A program made the translations under genes and the position numbers. Below are positions 1-5,963 of a stretch of DNA of 5,969 bases, piece by piece. The stretch comes from Candidatus Sumerlaeota bacterium (lineage in GTDB: Bacteria > CG03 > SLGR01): positions 1 through 5,969 of the forward strand of contig SLGR01000104.1 of assembly GCA_007136585.1 (NCBI GenBank), in the 5' to 3' direction. Under the pieces are notes generated by a model. That model saw only the letters and a list, made by a program, of their open reading frames with translations. It searched no databases and had not been told where the DNA came from. The stretch's first letter is position 1. Every line of letters starts with the position of its first letter.

Positions 1-858
1 CTCCCTCCATATCCGCATAACCGGATCCCGGTGTATATTTCCTGCTGCGGCATCTTTTGCAGTACTTCCTATCCCGCATATAGAGACGCTTCCGTCAGGA
101 AGTATGCTTAAACTGCTCCTGATACCGCATAAACACCCTTTTCTTATCTCTTCCGGTTTTAGAAAAACCGGGGGTATATCAAAAAGCACCCTTATTCCCT
201 TTATATCCCCGGCGCTGAACCGGTCTTTCAACTCAAGTATCCCGGATGCCTCCAGAAGAAGCCCCTTCGAACCGAGTCCGGCCCCCCTTGCTACGGGGGT
301 AACAGGGTTGATTTTAATAAGAGCCGCTCCCAGGTCACGGGCAAGGGATACCGTATTCACAATATCTGAGGCGTTTCCTTTCCAGAGGGAAAAGATGAGT
401 TTTACATAAAGCCCGGCTTCCGCGGCGCTCCTTATCCCCTCCAAGGCCCTGTAAAAGGCGTCCCCGCTTCCCCTTAAGGCGCCGTAAACCTCAGGGGAAG
501 ATCCGTCCAGGGATACTGATACCTCTTCCATCCCGGAATCCTTCATCATACGGGCTGATTCCCGGGTAATAAGCGTCCCGTTTGTCTCAACCGTAAACCT
601 TATCCCTCTCTTCCCGAGCCAGGAAGCAAGACCAGTAAGATCACTGTATAGAAAAGGCTCGCCCCCGGTGATTTTGACCGAGTTCAAACCCCCTGCGGAG
701 GCACTTGATAGAGCTTCCCGGAGTTTCCCGGGATCAAGCTCCTTCTCCCCCGGAGACTTTTCTCCGTCCCTGTATACCCAGCAGTGGCGGCAGCTTAAAT
801 TACACTTTTCGGTCAGGTGAAGGTATATACAGGAAACCGGATATTCAGACAATCTCAA
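1..858 (-). CDS. Radical SAM/SPASM domain enzyme, 3' end beyond the window (partial)
   Basis: An uninterrupted frame of 286 codons runs off the left edge. It has no ATG near its beginning, so it starts at a TTG (858, or 852), just after an in-frame TGA. An AGAAAGG stretch a few bases upstream of TTG 858 can serve as ribosome binding site. The start overlaps the end of the GT-B glycosyltransferase gene by 14 (or 8) nt, suggesting translational coupling. The radical SAM motif CNLSCRHC is at residues 19-26 (C19, C23, C26 bind the 4Fe-4S cluster). TGGEP at 64-68 contacts the SAM amino group, and VETNGTLI (90-97) and VSLDG (115-119) are typical barrel strands. A SPASM-like region begins near residue 242 with C242, C244 and C261 and a GNI...MRIW segment at 273-284; its remaining cysteines would lie outside the window. 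SPASM enzymes usually modify peptides or proteins by radical chemistry. The substrate is unknown; the small peptide encoded at 2738-2893 is the nearest candidate. The family is certain, the exact start and substrate are not. Confidence 0.9.
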   Translation of the reverse strand, partial: MRLSEYPVSCIYLHLTEKCNLSCRHCWVYRDGEKSPGEKELDPGKLREALSSASAGGLNSVKITGGEPFLYSDLTGLASWLGKRGIRFTVETNGTLITRESARMMKDSGMEEVSVSLDGSSPEVYGALRGSGDAFYRALEGIRSAAEAGLYVKLIFSLWKGNASDIVNTVSLARDLGAALIKINPVTPVARGAGLGSKGLLLEASGILELKDRFSAGDIKGIRVLFDIPPVFLKPEEIRKGCLCGIRSSLSILPDGSVSICGIGSTAKDAAAGNIHRDPVMRIWRE

Positions 859-1891
859 GAAGCCTTTCTCTCATTATTTCAAGTGTGTAGTTTTCTTTTA
901 TTTTTCCGTACCCGCCCGAGGATATTTTCTGCCATATTTCACTCTCATTGTAAAGACTGATAATATGGGAGGCAAACCCTTCAGCGTCTCCGCTTACAAG
1001 GACCTCTCTTCCGTTGATCAATCCTGGACCGGCAGCGGCGGCGGGGGTAGCTACCACGGGGGTCCCGTAAGCAGCAGCCTCAATAATCTTATGCTGCAGC
1101 CCGGAACATATCCTGAGCGGGGCCACCGATATCAGAGCCGATGAGGCATAGACCTCCGTATCCGGGACATACCCGGTTACCCTGAGAGAACCTCCCTCCA
1201 GGCCCCTTACCTTCTCGGAAGGATTATTCCCCACAATTGTAAATTCCACCCCGGGGACTCTTTCTTTTATAAGAGGGTATATCCTCTCTGTAAAGTAAAT
1301 TACAGCATCCTGGTTCTGAAAATTATTCATACTCCCGGTAAATACAATTCCCTTCCTTCCCTTTCTTTCCCTTACCTTCCGGGGAAGGTTTATACCCGTT
1401 ATCAGGGTCTCGGACCTTACCCCGGTCTCCCTGCTTATGATATCCCTTTCGCGGTCTGTAACAGCAAGCAGAATATCCGCTCTCTTATAGACCCCCAGCT
1501 CCTCCTCCCGGGAGAGCCTGCTGCTCTTAAGGTCCGGTCTTTCAGGAAACTTCTCCAGGAAACCGATCCGGTGTGAGTCTATAATCCTGCGGCAACCCGG
1601 AAGCCTGTTAAAACACCTTAGAAATCTTATTACGGTCCCGCAGAACTCGAAAATTACCGTATCTACTTTCTCCCGGACGAAAAATTTTTTAAGATCGGTC
1701 CATTCCAGGACCCGGACCCCGTTTTTTTTCAGAGCATCAAGATACCTTATCTCGGGAACATGGCTGCGGTAGCAGGAAAAAAAAACCCTGTACTTCTCTG
1801 AAAGTATCTTAAGCATCCGGTATATACGGTAATCTCCCGCGTTAGTATCAAATAACGGGATATTCGGGGCCAGCATAACCAGGGTCTTCAT
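845..1891 (-). CDS. GT-B fold glycosyltransferase (GT4 / group 1 type)
   Basis: A 348-residue protein of normal length for GT4-like enzymes, which move a sugar from a nucleotide-sugar donor to an acceptor at the cytoplasmic face. The N-terminal acceptor domain (about 1-165) has the NAGDYRIYRML segment at 17-27, seen in many members of this group. The C-terminal donor domain begins with FTGSMNN (184-190), continues with FTIVG (217-221) and GYVPD (240-244), and has the donor-site stretch SGLQHKIIEAAAYGTPVVAT at 263-282, where E271 matches the first Glu of the EX7E motif. No signal peptide or membrane segment is evident. The ATG follows the GT2 stop codon by 6 nt; the only upstream GGAG is about 15 nt away, so the start probably depends on coupling. 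The gene end overlaps the downstream radical SAM gene. Donor and acceptor cannot be read from the sequence: a polysaccharide, a lipid carrier or the small peptide of this cluster are all possible. Long A/T runs lie early in the gene. Confidence 0.9.
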   Translation of the reverse strand: MKTLVMLAPNIPLFDTNAGDYRIYRMLKILSEKYRVFFSCYRSHVPEIRYLDALKKNGVRVLEWTDLKKFFVREKVDTVIFEFCGTVIRFLRCFNRLPGCRRIIDSHRIGFLEKFPERPDLKSSRLSREEELGVYKRADILLAVTDRERDIISRETGVRSETLITGINLPRKVRERKGRKGIVFTGSMNNFQNQDAVIYFTERIYPLIKERVPGVEFTIVGNNPSEKVRGLEGGSLRVTGYVPDTEVYASSALISVAPLRICSGLQHKIIEAAAYGTPVVATPAAAAGPGLINGREVLVSGDAEGFASHIISLYNESEIWQKISSGGYGKIKENYTLEIMRERLLEIV

Positions 1892-1897
1892 TAGGGT

Positions 1898-2710
1898 CTA
1901 TACGGGCTCCGGGAACGCATCCCGGGAGATAATAACCTCACGGGGCCTTTCCCCCCTGGATCCGTAGGGCTGCCCTATACCTTCAAGATACTCAAGGGCC
2001 TTATTCCCGAACTTCCAGAGAAAATACTCCCTGTTTCTCCTGTCAAGAGAAACCATATCAAAACCGCCTAAGGTTCTACTGTAATAGTGAAATATAAAGG
2101 TATCCAAGGCGCATATTATCTTAAACCCGGCCAGGCGCAGCCTGAGGCAGAAGTCATGGTCGTCATTAGTTCCCAGGCCGTAACCCTCATCAAAGAACCC
2201 TGCTCGCTCAATCACATCCTTTCCGGTAAGCAGGCAGCAGGTAGTGGCACCGGGAATATATTGAAACTCATCTTTTCTTGAAAGTTCAAGGTACGCCGCC
2301 TCGCGGGCTATATTAGCCGGATCCATATCATTCCTGCCGGAGGGGTTGAAACAGGGAACAACAGCTCCGGCGCGGGGTATATTCAGAAATTTTTCAAGCA
2401 TTTTTCCGGCCCAGGATTCTGTTACAATTGTATCGTTATTTAAGAAAATAATATACCGGGAAGAGGCGACCCGTATCCCCTGGTTAAAAGCCGCGGGGGC
2501 GCCGCGGTTTATGGAATTTCTTATAACTCTTATTCCCGCCTCACTTTTCATACCTTCAAGGTACTCTGAGGTTCCATCGGAAGAGCCGTTATCCACTACT
2601 ATTATCTCAAACGAAACCTGAGTTTTACTTAAGACACTTTCAAGTGTCTTTTTTGTAAACTCGAGGTTATTCAGGCAGGGTATAATTACCGATACGGGTT
2701 CTTTTTTCAT
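1898..2710 (-). CDS. Family 2 glycosyltransferase (GT-A fold, rhamnosyltransferase-like group)
   Basis: A 270-residue inverting GT2-type enzyme. The nucleotide-binding strand SVIIPCLNN is at residues 7-15, VVDNGSSDGTSEYL at 38-51, and the metal-binding FLNND (DXD equivalent) at 89-93. The acceptor-side region is also present: PGATTCCLLTG (153-163), AGFFDEGY (170-177) and DDHDFCLRLRLAGFK (183-197), which holds the likely catalytic acid/base cluster, plus a His-Tyr-Tyr at 208-210. This arrangement is typical of soluble GT2 enzymes in O-antigen, cell-wall and protein glycosylation loci; donor and acceptor are not predictable here. An in-frame TGA directly precedes the ATG and the first fold strand begins at residue 7, so the start is well fixed even though no good ribosome binding site lies at normal spacing. 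It follows the small peptide gene by 27 nt and precedes the GT-B gene by 6 nt, so the three probably share one transcript. Confidence 0.93.
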   Translation of the reverse strand: MKKEPVSVIIPCLNNLEFTKKTLESVLSKTQVSFEIIVVDNGSSDGTSEYLEGMKSEAGIRVIRNSINRGAPAAFNQGIRVASSRYIIFLNNDTIVTESWAGKMLEKFLNIPRAGAVVPCFNPSGRNDMDPANIAREAAYLELSRKDEFQYIPGATTCCLLTGKDVIERAGFFDEGYGLGTNDDHDFCLRLRLAGFKIICALDTFIFHYYSRTLGGFDMVSLDRRNREYFLWKFGNKALEYLEGIGQPYGSRGERPREVIISRDAFPEPV

Positions 2711-2737: not shown

Positions 2738-2893
2738 TCAGTTTTCCTCCTCTTCCTTTACGGATGATGAGGTCCCGCTGGAGCAGCTTGACCACGCCGG
2801 AGGTGTTTGAACCTTCATAACGGTAAGTTTGGGTTTTACCCATCTGCCCCGAACGTTTTCCCCGGCGCTGCCGCCGTTTTTTTCATTACTCAT
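2738..2893 (-). CDS. Small peptide, candidate radical SAM-modified RiPP precursor (51 aa)
   Basis: A 51-codon ATG frame fills the gap between the radical SAM gene (23 nt upstream) and the GT2 gene (27 nt downstream). It is preceded by AGAAGGAG nine bases before the ATG, the strongest ribosome binding site in the window. The product begins with a Gly/Asn-rich hydrophilic stretch (1-16), then the basic segment RWVKPKLTVMK (17-27), then VQTPPAW (28-34), a patch of seven Ser, one Thr, one Gly and a single Cys (C37) at 35-44, and an acidic end of four Glu and Asn (47-51). A K-P-x-L element in the leader half is common in precursors read by RRE (PqqD-like) domains, and the position beside a SPASM enzyme is the classic context. 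No signal peptide or membrane helix is seen. The family is not recognised. It could instead be a small regulatory or accessory protein, or a chance frame, but the strong RBS and exact fit in the operon argue against chance. Confidence 0.72.
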   Translation of the reverse strand: MSNEKNGGSAGENVRGRWVKPKLTVMKVQTPPAWSSCSSGTSSSVKEEEEN

Positions 2894-2902
2894 TAACTCA
2901 AA

Positions 2903-2910
2903 CTCCTTCT
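2903..2910 (-). promoter_or_regulatory. Strong Shine-Dalgarno for the small peptide gene
   Basis: AGAAGGAG on the minus strand, nine bases ahead of the ATG at 2893. It fixes the start of the small gene and is much better than the sites before the neighbouring enzymes, which have none or only partial matches. This suggests the peptide is translated in excess over the enzymes, as expected for a substrate. Confidence 0.75.
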
Positions 2911-2916
2911 GATTTA

Positions 2917-3975
2917 TTATAGAAAATTACAGTGCTCTTTATCCCGGGTTATATCCCATAACACCTCATTAATCCCGTCACACCGGCAGAGCAGCGGACA
3001 GTCACGGAAATCAAGTTTAGCTACTGTCTCCGCTCTCCTTCGGGAACTCCATATTTCCTTTAAGGAATCCCGGGAGAGGTCCCCTATACAGTACTTTTCC
3101 ACTCCCCGCATATGGCAGCAGAGGTACATTTTTTTATCTGCGGCTATAACTGTCGCGAAATTATGGCCAAAACATTCCCTGTATTTCCGGGCAGTACAAC
3201 CCTTCTCCATCTTCTCGTACTTGCTGAGAGAATAAAGCACCCGGAACCCGTTCCTGCTTTTCTTAAGGACGTTTTTAAGTTCATCCATAACTGAGACTGA
3301 ACCGCCGGGGTCTGAGTTAAGTTCACTTCCGTTAAACCCTTTCAGAAGCGGGCGAAACTGGGCGTAATCCACCCCTATACCGCTACTGATATCCACAAAT
3401 TTTTCCATCTCCCCCGTTATCTCCGGAAAAGTCAGGAACCCGGTCCCTACAGTCACGGAAGACCCCGTCCTTTTTTTCTCTTCTACAAGCATTGCGGTAT
3501 TTTCAATAACTTTCTGAAAAGTATCGCTGTCCAGCCCGTGGGTTAACCTGTAATACTTCTTTGAACCGGCATCCAGGCTTACCCGGACCCAGGTGCAGTA
3601 TTCGGCCAGCGCCGCGCATTTCCGACGATCCAGCATTATACCGTTAGTTATGAACCCTACATCCAGACCGATCTCCTTAGCGTACTTGACAGCTTTAAAA
3701 GTATCCCTGTTACAAAGGGGTTCGCCCCCTCCGGTAAAAGTCACCCCCATCCCCCCGAAACCCCTTATCTGATCCAACATATCCCTTACCTCTTCAATCC
3801 GAAGTGAGAAGGGGTTCTCTTCCCTGTTTCTGTAACCGAAACAGAAACTGCACCTGGAATCGCAGGCATTGGTCATATCCAGCTCATAGGTAACAGGACG
3901 CGAAAACCCCGTCTGCTGCCATTCAAGTACCCGGTCCAAGTGCTTAAGAATCTTATTTGATGAAAACTGGCTCAT
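2917..3975 (-). CDS. Radical SAM/SPASM enzyme, likely peptide maturase
   Basis: A 352-residue enzyme. A short N-terminal stretch (1-30) leads into CDSRCSFC at 38-45 (C38, C42, C45 for the SAM-binding 4Fe-4S cluster), then TFTGGGEP (79-86), GFITNGIML (107-115), VRVSLDAG (130-137) and the barrel strand DYAQFRPLLKG (203-213). The C-terminal part holds nine cysteines (260, 268, 286, 287, 296, 326, 330, 332, 349) with the SPASM hallmark CIGDLSRDSLKEIWSS (296-311), so it probably binds one or two auxiliary Fe-S clusters. Known SPASM enzymes form thioether or C-C bonds in RiPP precursors or activate sulfatases; SPASM or twitch relatives also act on sugars. The N-terminus is too short to contain an RRE domain, so any recognition protein must be separate. 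It heads the accessory cluster behind a promoter-like spacer and ends in tandem TAA stops just before the small peptide gene, its most likely substrate. Upstream of the ATG there is only a weak AGCGG. Family sure; reaction and substrate inferred. Confidence 0.92.
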   Translation of the reverse strand: MSQFSSNKILKHLDRVLEWQQTGFSRPVTYELDMTNACDSRCSFCFGYRNREENPFSLRIEEVRDMLDQIRGFGGMGVTFTGGGEPLCNRDTFKAVKYAKEIGLDVGFITNGIMLDRRKCAALAEYCTWVRVSLDAGSKKYYRLTHGLDSDTFQKVIENTAMLVEEKKRTGSSVTVGTGFLTFPEITGEMEKFVDISSGIGVDYAQFRPLLKGFNGSELNSDPGGSVSVMDELKNVLKKSRNGFRVLYSLSKYEKMEKGCTARKYRECFGHNFATVIAADKKMYLCCHMRGVEKYCIGDLSRDSLKEIWSSRRRAETVAKLDFRDCPLLCRCDGINEVLWDITRDKEHCNFL

Positions 3976-4090: not shown

Positions 4091-5485
4091 CTAACCGGGC
4101 GAAACCTTTCTCCATCGGGGACCGGATGGGGTGTCCTTTATCTCTATCCCCTTTTCAAGGAGTTTATCCCTTATCACATCGGCTTCCCCGAACCGGCGCT
4201 GATTTCTCAGCTTCTCCCGCCTGGATATCAACTCCTCTATACCACTATTATCCATACCGGCGGAGGGAGTATTAAGTTCAATACCCAGCACCTCTTCTGT
4301 TACAAAAATTATCCTCCGCGCCAGAGCCGCATCATCTTCTGTATGGGTTTTGCCGTATATTTTTTCAAGCAAGGGCCCCGCGGCGGTAAAGATCCGGCCG
4401 AGAGTCCGGGCAGTATTAAGGTCATCGCTTAGAGCCTCTACCAGAGGATCGTTCCAATCACAGAAGCCCTGCTCATAAAACTTTCCCGCGCGGATGAGCT
4501 CTTCCTTAAGTTCAACCAGACGACGGAAAGCTTTCTCCGTTCCTTTAAGCGCCTCGGGATCGTAATCAAGGCTCTGCCTGTAGGAAGAGCTCAGGAGAAA
4601 AATCCGCAGGGCGCCGGGCGAAACCTCCTTCAGGGCCTCGTTCAACAGAAATAAATTACCCGTTGATTTTGCCATCTTATCACCGCGGAGGGTGACCATC
4701 CCGTTATGGACCCAGTACCTTGCCGGAACCCGTCCGGTCAGCGCCGTTGACTGGGCTATCTCGTTCTCATGGTGGGGAAACAACAGGTCAAGCCCCCCTC
4801 CGTGTATATCAAAAAAGTCTCCCAGGATATCCTTTGACATTGCCGAACACTCTATATGCCACCCGGGGCGCCCCTGCCCCCAGGGAGAATCCCAGCCGTA
4901 TTCGGGGTCCTGTTTCCAGAGGGCAAAATCCCTGGGGTCCTTTTTCGCGCGCAAACCTTTTGATTCTTCCCCTATAACTTTTTCCCCCTCACCCCGCCCG
5001 GAGAAATCCCCGTAACCGTCCAGGGATGAGACACGGAAATATACGCTCCCCGAGATTTCGTAAGCAGAACCCTTCTTAATAAGGGCCTTTATGAAACTAA
5101 TTATCTTATCAATATTCTCCGTAACCCTGGGGTAGATATCCGCTGGTTTTACGTTAAGTTTCTCCATCTCCCCCATAAAAGAGCTGAAGTACCTGGAGGC
5201 TATATCTGAAGGAGTATCGCCTGTCTCCATACTTTTTGCAATTATCTTGTCGTCAATATCCGTTATATTCTGGACATAGGTAACCTCATACCCCAGAAAC
5301 TCCAGGTACCTCCTGAGCGTATCAAAAACAACATAGCACCTGGCGTGGCCCAGGTGAGCCTCGGAGTAGGGGGTCACACCGCAAACGTACATTCCCACGA
5401 GTCCTGTCCTGATACTTTCAAACGCCTCTTTCTTCCGGGTCAGGGTATTGTAAATTTTAAAATTTCCCGTCTTACTGTCTCTCAT
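4091..5485 (-). CDS. cysS: Cysteinyl-tRNA synthetase
   Basis: Charges tRNA-Cys with cysteine using ATP in the cytoplasm (class I synthetase, EC 6.1.1.16). The 464-residue length matches the bacterial family. Counting from the ATG: MYVCGVTPYSEAHLGHAR at 32-49 holds the zinc ligand C35 and the HIGH-type signature HLGH (44-47). WHIECSAMS (209-217) gives zinc ligand C213, FPHHENEIAQS (236-246) gives H238 and E242, and the second signature KMAKS is at 270-274. The C-terminal helical anticodon-binding part, with DDLNTARTLG (354-363) and FGEADVIRDKL (432-442), is complete. An in-frame GTG at 5491 could add two residues; the ATG at 5485 is preferred, and neither has a clear ribosome binding site. The start overlaps the ispF end by 14 nt, so translation is probably coupled. 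It is separated from the left-hand cluster by 115 bp. All catalytic and zinc residues are present, so it should be functional. Confidence 0.98.
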   Translation of the reverse strand: MRDSKTGNFKIYNTLTRKKEAFESIRTGLVGMYVCGVTPYSEAHLGHARCYVVFDTLRRYLEFLGYEVTYVQNITDIDDKIIAKSMETGDTPSDIASRYFSSFMGEMEKLNVKPADIYPRVTENIDKIISFIKALIKKGSAYEISGSVYFRVSSLDGYGDFSGRGEGEKVIGEESKGLRAKKDPRDFALWKQDPEYGWDSPWGQGRPGWHIECSAMSKDILGDFFDIHGGGLDLLFPHHENEIAQSTALTGRVPARYWVHNGMVTLRGDKMAKSTGNLFLLNEALKEVSPGALRIFLLSSSYRQSLDYDPEALKGTEKAFRRLVELKEELIRAGKFYEQGFCDWNDPLVEALSDDLNTARTLGRIFTAAGPLLEKIYGKTHTEDDAALARRIIFVTEEVLGIELNTPSAGMDNSGIEELISRREKLRNQRRFGEADVIRDKLLEKGIEIKDTPSGPRWRKVSPG

Positions 5486-5963
5486 AATCACTGGTGGGTA
5501 TTATGGTGGCAACAGCGACCGCTGCCGCGGCTTCACCCCTGCCTATTCCCCCCACCCCCTCGTTCGTGGTGCCCTTTATATTAATATCCTTCGCAGGAAC
5601 CGATATTATCCGGGAAATATTATCCGCCATCTCTCCGGCGCGGGAGGTTATTTTAGGTTCCTCGCATATAACCGTGATATCAAGGTTGTTAACCTCATAA
5701 CCTTTCTCCCTAATCAAAAGATTCACCTTCTCAAGAAGGACAAGCGACGAAATCCCTCTGTATTCGGGCGACGTATCTGGAAAGTGTCTTCCTATATCGC
5801 CCAGCGCCGCCGCCCCCAGAATGGCATCGCAGACCGCGTGAAGCAAGACATCGGCGTCAGAGTGACCTTCAAGTCCCGCGGAAAAGTCAAAACTGACCCC
5901 GCCCAGCGTGCACTTCCGCCCTTTGGAGAACCTGTGTATATCATACCCTATCCCGGTTCGCAT
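5472..5963 (-). CDS. ispF: 2-C-methyl-D-erythritol 2,4-cyclodiphosphate synthase
   Basis: Converts CDP-methylerythritol 2-phosphate to the cyclic diphosphate with release of CMP, in the MEP pathway to isoprenoids (EC 4.6.1.12); a homotrimer with a metal site per active site. The 163 residues match the usual length of about 157-160 plus a short tail. MRTGIGYDIHRF carries metal ligands D8 and H10. EGHSDADVLLHA (32-43) carries H34 and the third ligand H42, and GDIGRHFPD (55-63) is the substrate loop. KGTTNEGVGGIGRGE (130-144) holds the conserved T132, T133, E135 and R142 of the CMP-binding region. The ATG lies only six bases from the right edge, where GGAAAC precedes it, so most of the upstream signal is outside. 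This is a stand-alone IspF as far as the window shows; an ispD just upstream is common in relatives but cannot be seen. It overlaps cysS, forming a housekeeping pair. Confidence 0.98.
   Translation of the reverse strand: MRTGIGYDIHRFSKGRKCTLGGVSFDFSAGLEGHSDADVLLHAVCDAILGAAALGDIGRHFPDTSPEYRGISSLVLLEKVNLLIREKGYEVNNLDITVICEEPKITSRAGEMADNISRIISVPAKDINIKGTTNEGVGGIGRGEAAAAVAVATIIPTSDYERQ

Follow-up and report, generated by a model that had tools for sequence, protein, structure and literature searches.

The window analyzed here is the whole of contig C207 (5,969 bp) of genome G000, a metagenome-type assembly of 1.88 Mb that is 88% complete and belongs to a phylum represented in our sample by 16 genomes. 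All genes in the window lie on the minus strand, in the order ispF-like gene, cysS, a radical SAM/SPASM gene (rSAM A), a small gene encoding a 51-residue peptide, two glycosyltransferase genes of the GT2 and GT4 types, and a second radical SAM/SPASM gene (rSAM B) (Table 1). From rSAM A to rSAM B, the genes are separated by 23, 27, and 6 nt and then overlap by 14 nt, a spacing like that in an operon. The 352-residue product of rSAM A matched the Radical_SAM and SPASM domains with 83.5 and 34 bits, respectively.

TABLE 1 Features of the window and the basis for each assignment
Feature	Position	Strand	Basis or remark
51-aa candidate RiPP precursor peptide	2738..2893	-	ATG start; homologue at L030:333-497(-)
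Ribosome binding site of the peptide gene, AGAAGGAG	2903..2910	-	Sequence
Candidate leader recognition element W18-V-K-P-K-L23 (WxxPxL)	2825..2842	-	Sequence; W, P, K, and L invariant with G002
Conserved core T30-P-P-A-W-S-S-C-S-S-G40	2774..2806	-	Invariant P31, P32, W34, S36, C37, S39, and G40
GT2-family glycosyltransferase	1898..2710	-	PF00535, 107.6 bits; 27 nt past the peptide gene
GT4-like glycosyltransferase	845..1891	-	PF13692, 82.8 bits; 45% identity to the GT4 beside the G002 rSAM B counterpart
rSAM B, ScmF-like radical SAM/SPASM enzyme	1..858	-	3' end lost at contig end
rSAM A, radical SAM/SPASM enzyme encoded 23 nt before the peptide gene	2917..3975	-	PF04055, PF13186
cysS, cysteinyl-tRNA synthetase (flanking housekeeping)	4091..5491	-	PF01406, 384.6 bits
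ispF-like gene (flanking housekeeping)	5472..5963	-	Read from translation

The peptide gene and its leader

A preliminary description of this DNA had proposed that the small gene encodes a RiPP precursor and that the adjoining SPASM enzyme, rSAM A, modifies it. Its account of the 51-residue frame, the ribosome binding site, the 23-nt gap to the end of rSAM A at position 2917, and the placement of KPKL at residues 20 to 23 and TPPAW at residues 30 to 34 was verified. A homologue of the peptide, MKSADKNKKTKAPTKKKKWEEPKLTVMKVESPPRWTSCTSGSGGEFSDICATGS, was found in G002, a genome of the same family (E = 1.7e-9; 44% identity over residues 3 to 43). Alignment of the two peptides gave 20 invariant columns, and both contain the block W-x-x-PKLTVMKV-x-(S/T)-PP-x-W-x-SC-x-SG. 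Over a 26-codon block, 8 of 16 identical residues are encoded by different codons, and third positions hold 15 of the 28 base differences (third-position excess, p = 0.005); the identity of the proteins exceeds that under randomly placed changes (P = 0.001). The shared block thus retains its amino acids as the codons change. Because the homologue is conserved at the protein level with synonymous change, the frame is a real coding gene. That it is a chance open reading frame, as its short length and the lack of any database family match might suggest, has a negligible probability given this conservation, the good ribosome binding site, and the shared position beside a GT2 gene described below.

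The peptide is rare. It is absent from G001, a 97% complete genome of the same family, and a two-sequence profile run over 386 genomes gave real matches in G000 and G002 only, the remaining matches being short and attributable to chance. Searches of viral contigs and plasmids and of the four genomes of the phylum of G057 gave no match.

The preliminary description had also pointed to KPKL as a KPxL-like leader element. A recognition element is present, but KPKL is the end of a WxxPxL motif, whose counterpart in the G002 peptide is WEEPKL. The window motif fits exactly the pattern [Y/W]xxPx[L/V/I/F/A], to which discrete RREs of the lasso type bind, and a WxxPxL leader has been seen as an RRE ligand in a crystal structure (PMC13381572). 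Motifs of the W/Y/LxxP type recur across the PqqD, StsC, and lasso RRE groups (PMC12710340). Both the window and G002 contain a short open reading frame with such a leader; when the window peptide was shuffled, the motif alone appeared in about 2% of the shuffles. Because the frame is conserved and its leader carries an RRE-type element, the best reading of the sequence is that the peptide is probably a RiPP precursor.

Genes associated with the peptide in related genomes

In G002, the peptide gene again directly precedes a GT2 gene on the same contig (C38), and the GT2 proteins are 50% identical over the part present. This pair is the only linkage found on one contig in both genomes; the gene preceding the peptide in G002 encodes a B12-binding radical SAM enzyme, not rSAM A. 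The G002 GT2 homologue (L030:1-274(-)) has one in-frame stop (TAA), which may reflect either assembly error or decay.

A second G002 contig, C246, starts inside a GT4 gene (45% identity to the window GT4) and continues with a gene for an ScmF-like SPASM enzyme (39% identity to rSAM B), a PqqD gene, a B12 radical SAM gene, an ABC-2 permease gene, and the start of an ABC ATPase-like frame. The 88-residue PqqD protein matched PF05402 with 59.5 bits. C38 and C246 would join into one cassette in the order of the window, whose contig ends inside rSAM B, before the place where PqqD follows in G002; PqqD was not found elsewhere in the 88% complete window genome. The conserved neighbor of the peptide is thus GT2 and, by this contig order, presumably also GT4 and an ScmF-like SPASM enzyme with PqqD.

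The closest NCBIfam model of the G002 PqqD is lasso_PqqD_Bac, and among solved structures it matched TbiB1 and 9x90, both lasso RREs, best. Together with the WxxPxL leader, this similarity might suggest a lasso peptide precursor. Neither an asparagine-synthetase-like cyclase nor a leader protease was read or matched in the genes of the window or of the G002 contigs, however, and, counting from a plausible end of the leader, neither Asp nor Glu stands at the position expected for the ring, making a lasso precursor very improbable. We also considered covariation of the Tyr-binding Asp of RREs with W or Y leaders, as Gly takes the place of the usual Asp in the G002 PqqD. This pattern is suggestive only and was not used as support, since a W-leader peptide at L146 adjoins an Asp-bearing PqqD.

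Radical SAM enzymes as candidate partners

The pairing of the peptide with rSAM A as its dedicated maturase was not supported. We compared 15 loci with rSAM A homologues, from G002, G003, G057, Endomicrobiaceae, Elusimicrobia, and Omnitrophota, and found no credible peptide, no conserved small frame containing KPKL, and no PqqD gene nearby. Homologues in the last three groups are 44 to 54% identical to rSAM A, and next to them are further radical SAM enzymes and, in part, genes resembling glycosyltransferases. One motif match near a homologue, at L025, lies 3 kb off in the frame of a membrane protein. In G002, the rSAM A homologue is on a different contig from the peptide, as a solitary gene flanked by a pilus-type gene on one side and an rpsP-like gene on the other. 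Because the homologues lack the peptide and PqqD and are sited separately in G002, the adjacency in the window is probably only local. The refuting condition set in the preliminary description, homologues of the enzyme that lack any such peptide, thus removes the pairing with rSAM A but leaves the peptide standing as a conserved coding gene with an RRE-type leader element. That rSAM A, alone or with rSAM B, matures the peptide is unlikely: it is a SPASM enzyme, lies 23 nt away on the same strand, and is separated from the peptide by no strong terminator on that strand, but against this stand the homologue loci, the separate contigs in G002, and the stretch of only about 37 residues before the radical SAM cysteines, which leaves no fused N-terminal RRE. 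Matches of rSAM A to viperin in PADLOC reflect generic radical SAM similarity.

The family closest to rSAM B is ScmF (TIGR04251), and a profile of rSAM B returned ScmF loci followed by a clear drop in score. PqqD domains occur at 10 of the 13 ScmF loci examined in other genomes, and most of the 13 have a small open reading frame that begins with YxxP and continues with Cys-Gly repeats. A small frame with the strict motif [YW]xxPx[LVIFA] was found within 6 kb at 7 of the 13 loci and within 2.5 kb at 6, versus none within 2.5 kb at 26 control loci, a comparison that is approximate, since the controls were drawn from other radical SAM loci and from arbitrary stretches. At L094, ScmC, ScmD, ScmE, and ScmF all score above their curated cut-offs, and a peptide of this kind, MKYEKPELKSLNLKN..., is encoded between ScmF and ScmC. 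Cys/Gly-rich frames with YxxP leaders beside ScmF are located at L094:9159-9326(-), L098:4302-4532(+), L101:10676-10975(+), L102:8246-8524(-), L103:11273-11569(+), and L104:3750-3992(-); these are candidate precursors of the SynChlorMet cassette.

In G003, a genome assigned to the same taxonomic order as that of the window, a PqqD gene is followed by a 32-residue YKKPKL peptide, MQKKTGTKKKKTYKKPKLVKYQKLKKIGTTTI (L125:4704-4802(+)), with GT4 and GT2 genes upstream; the cassette also contains radical SAM enzymes and an S24-like peptidase frame. Eight PqqD-linked YxxP-type peptides, including that of G003, gave no match to NCBIfam models. Elsewhere at L125, a GT2 glycosyltransferase has a PqqD domain fused at its C terminus (L125:2198-3376(+); PF05402, 35.6 bits). 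Leader peptides of the [Y/W]xxP type near PqqD were seen in other genomes at L143:110-268(+) (YGKPKL) and L146:199-468(-) (WKKPEL). Contig C12 of G003 carries several B12-type radical SAM genes in tandem (L077:7247-14000(+) and L123:1-3717(+)). A set of three radical SAM genes and one B12 radical SAM gene is conserved in G000, G002, and G003 (L119:1358-6281(+), L121:899-5690(-), and L124:8821-15613(-)).

A proposed pathway and its relation to known systems

We propose that the peptide is a RiPP precursor whose leader is bound by a PqqD-type RRE and whose core is modified by the ScmF-like enzyme, an explanation to which, as a whole, we assign a probability of roughly two in three. Residues 1 to about 29 would form the leader, with the WxxPxL strand bound by the small RRE. 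The RRE would hand the core (T/S-PP-x-W-x-SC-x-SG and a variable tail) to rSAM B, encoded three genes downstream, which would most likely introduce a cross-link at invariant Cys37 or Trp34. GT2 and GT4 may glycosylate the Ser/Thr/Cys-rich core, and the ABC-2 exporter seen in G002 may export the product. Several points count against this mechanism. The exact peptide occurs in two genomes only, its core has none of the Cys-Gly repeats seen in the other peptides linked to ScmF, and its leader motif also arises at the low rate given above when the peptide is shuffled. PqqD was not found in the window genome, whose contig stops within rSAM B; the G002 arrangement is pieced together from two contigs; rSAM B scores well below the ScmF cut-off; and the G002 GT2 carries an in-frame stop.

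The glycosyltransferase genes could instead serve a surface polysaccharide pathway. The peptide might then be a conserved small component of a gene cluster for surface glycans, serving the glycosyltransferases as anchor or carrier and left unmodified by the radical SAM enzymes, consistent with its GT2 and GT4 neighbors, the polysaccharide-type ABC-2 permease in G002, and the fact that GT2 is its sole linked neighbor in both genomes. We consider this improbable in view of the WxxPxL leader, the PqqD gene in the G002 cassette, and the parallel YxxP peptides at ScmF loci.

If the peptide is instead the precursor that we propose, radical SAM/PqqD cassettes of an orphan class gain a concrete candidate substrate whose docking motif can be tested and whose core is conserved, and a natural product joining radical SAM chemistry with glycosylation is suggested in an uncultured phylum. 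Since the YxxP-leader peptides next to genuine ScmF genes match no NCBIfam model, they could fill the substrate gap in a cassette whose name comes from its enzymes only. We tentatively suggest, as a possibility less likely than not, that the window peptide and the YxxP Cys-Gly-repeat peptides are unmodelled precursors of the SynChlorMet type, with glycosylation added to the radical SAM modification of the core in the branch that this lineage represents.

Glycocins are made with GT2 S-glycosyltransferases such as SunS. A GT2 gene beside a Cys/Ser-rich peptide recalls these systems and is a lead only; the window GT2 did not match them specifically, and unlike them the cassette has radical SAM enzymes and, in G002, an RRE. 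The resemblance to SynChlorMet (ScmC/D/E/F, TIGR04248 to TIGR04251) lies in the ScmF-family SPASM enzyme as the closest relative of rSAM B, the PqqD that accompanies its G002 counterpart, and a small peptide with a [Y/W]xxP leader in the cassette. The cassette differs in its two glycosyltransferases, its B12 radical SAM enzyme, and a core free of Cys-Gly repeats. Neither rSAM B (173.4 bits for the truncated protein) nor the full G002 protein (281.8 bits) reaches the ScmF cut-off of 400 bits, and the G002 PqqD scores 28.1 bits against an ScmD cut-off of 100; ScmE and ScmC are not among the annotated genes of the window and the G002 cassette, whose contigs are incomplete. Lasso systems with a B1/RRE and paeninodin-like WxxPxL leaders (PMC13381572) share the leader element and the discrete RRE type, whereas here there are radical SAM enzymes, no cyclase or protease, and a core that is not lasso-like. 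PQQ (PqqA/D/E) and streptosactin (StsA/B/C) follow the same logic of a peptide, a discrete RRE, and a SPASM enzyme, and PqqD and StsC are among the RREs that bind W/Y/LxxP-type motifs (PMC12710340); their precursors are unrelated in sequence, and glycosyltransferases are present here. The system would work like a PqqD/SPASM RiPP system, and we file it neither as SynChlorMet, because the curated cut-offs are unmet, nor as a lasso peptide.
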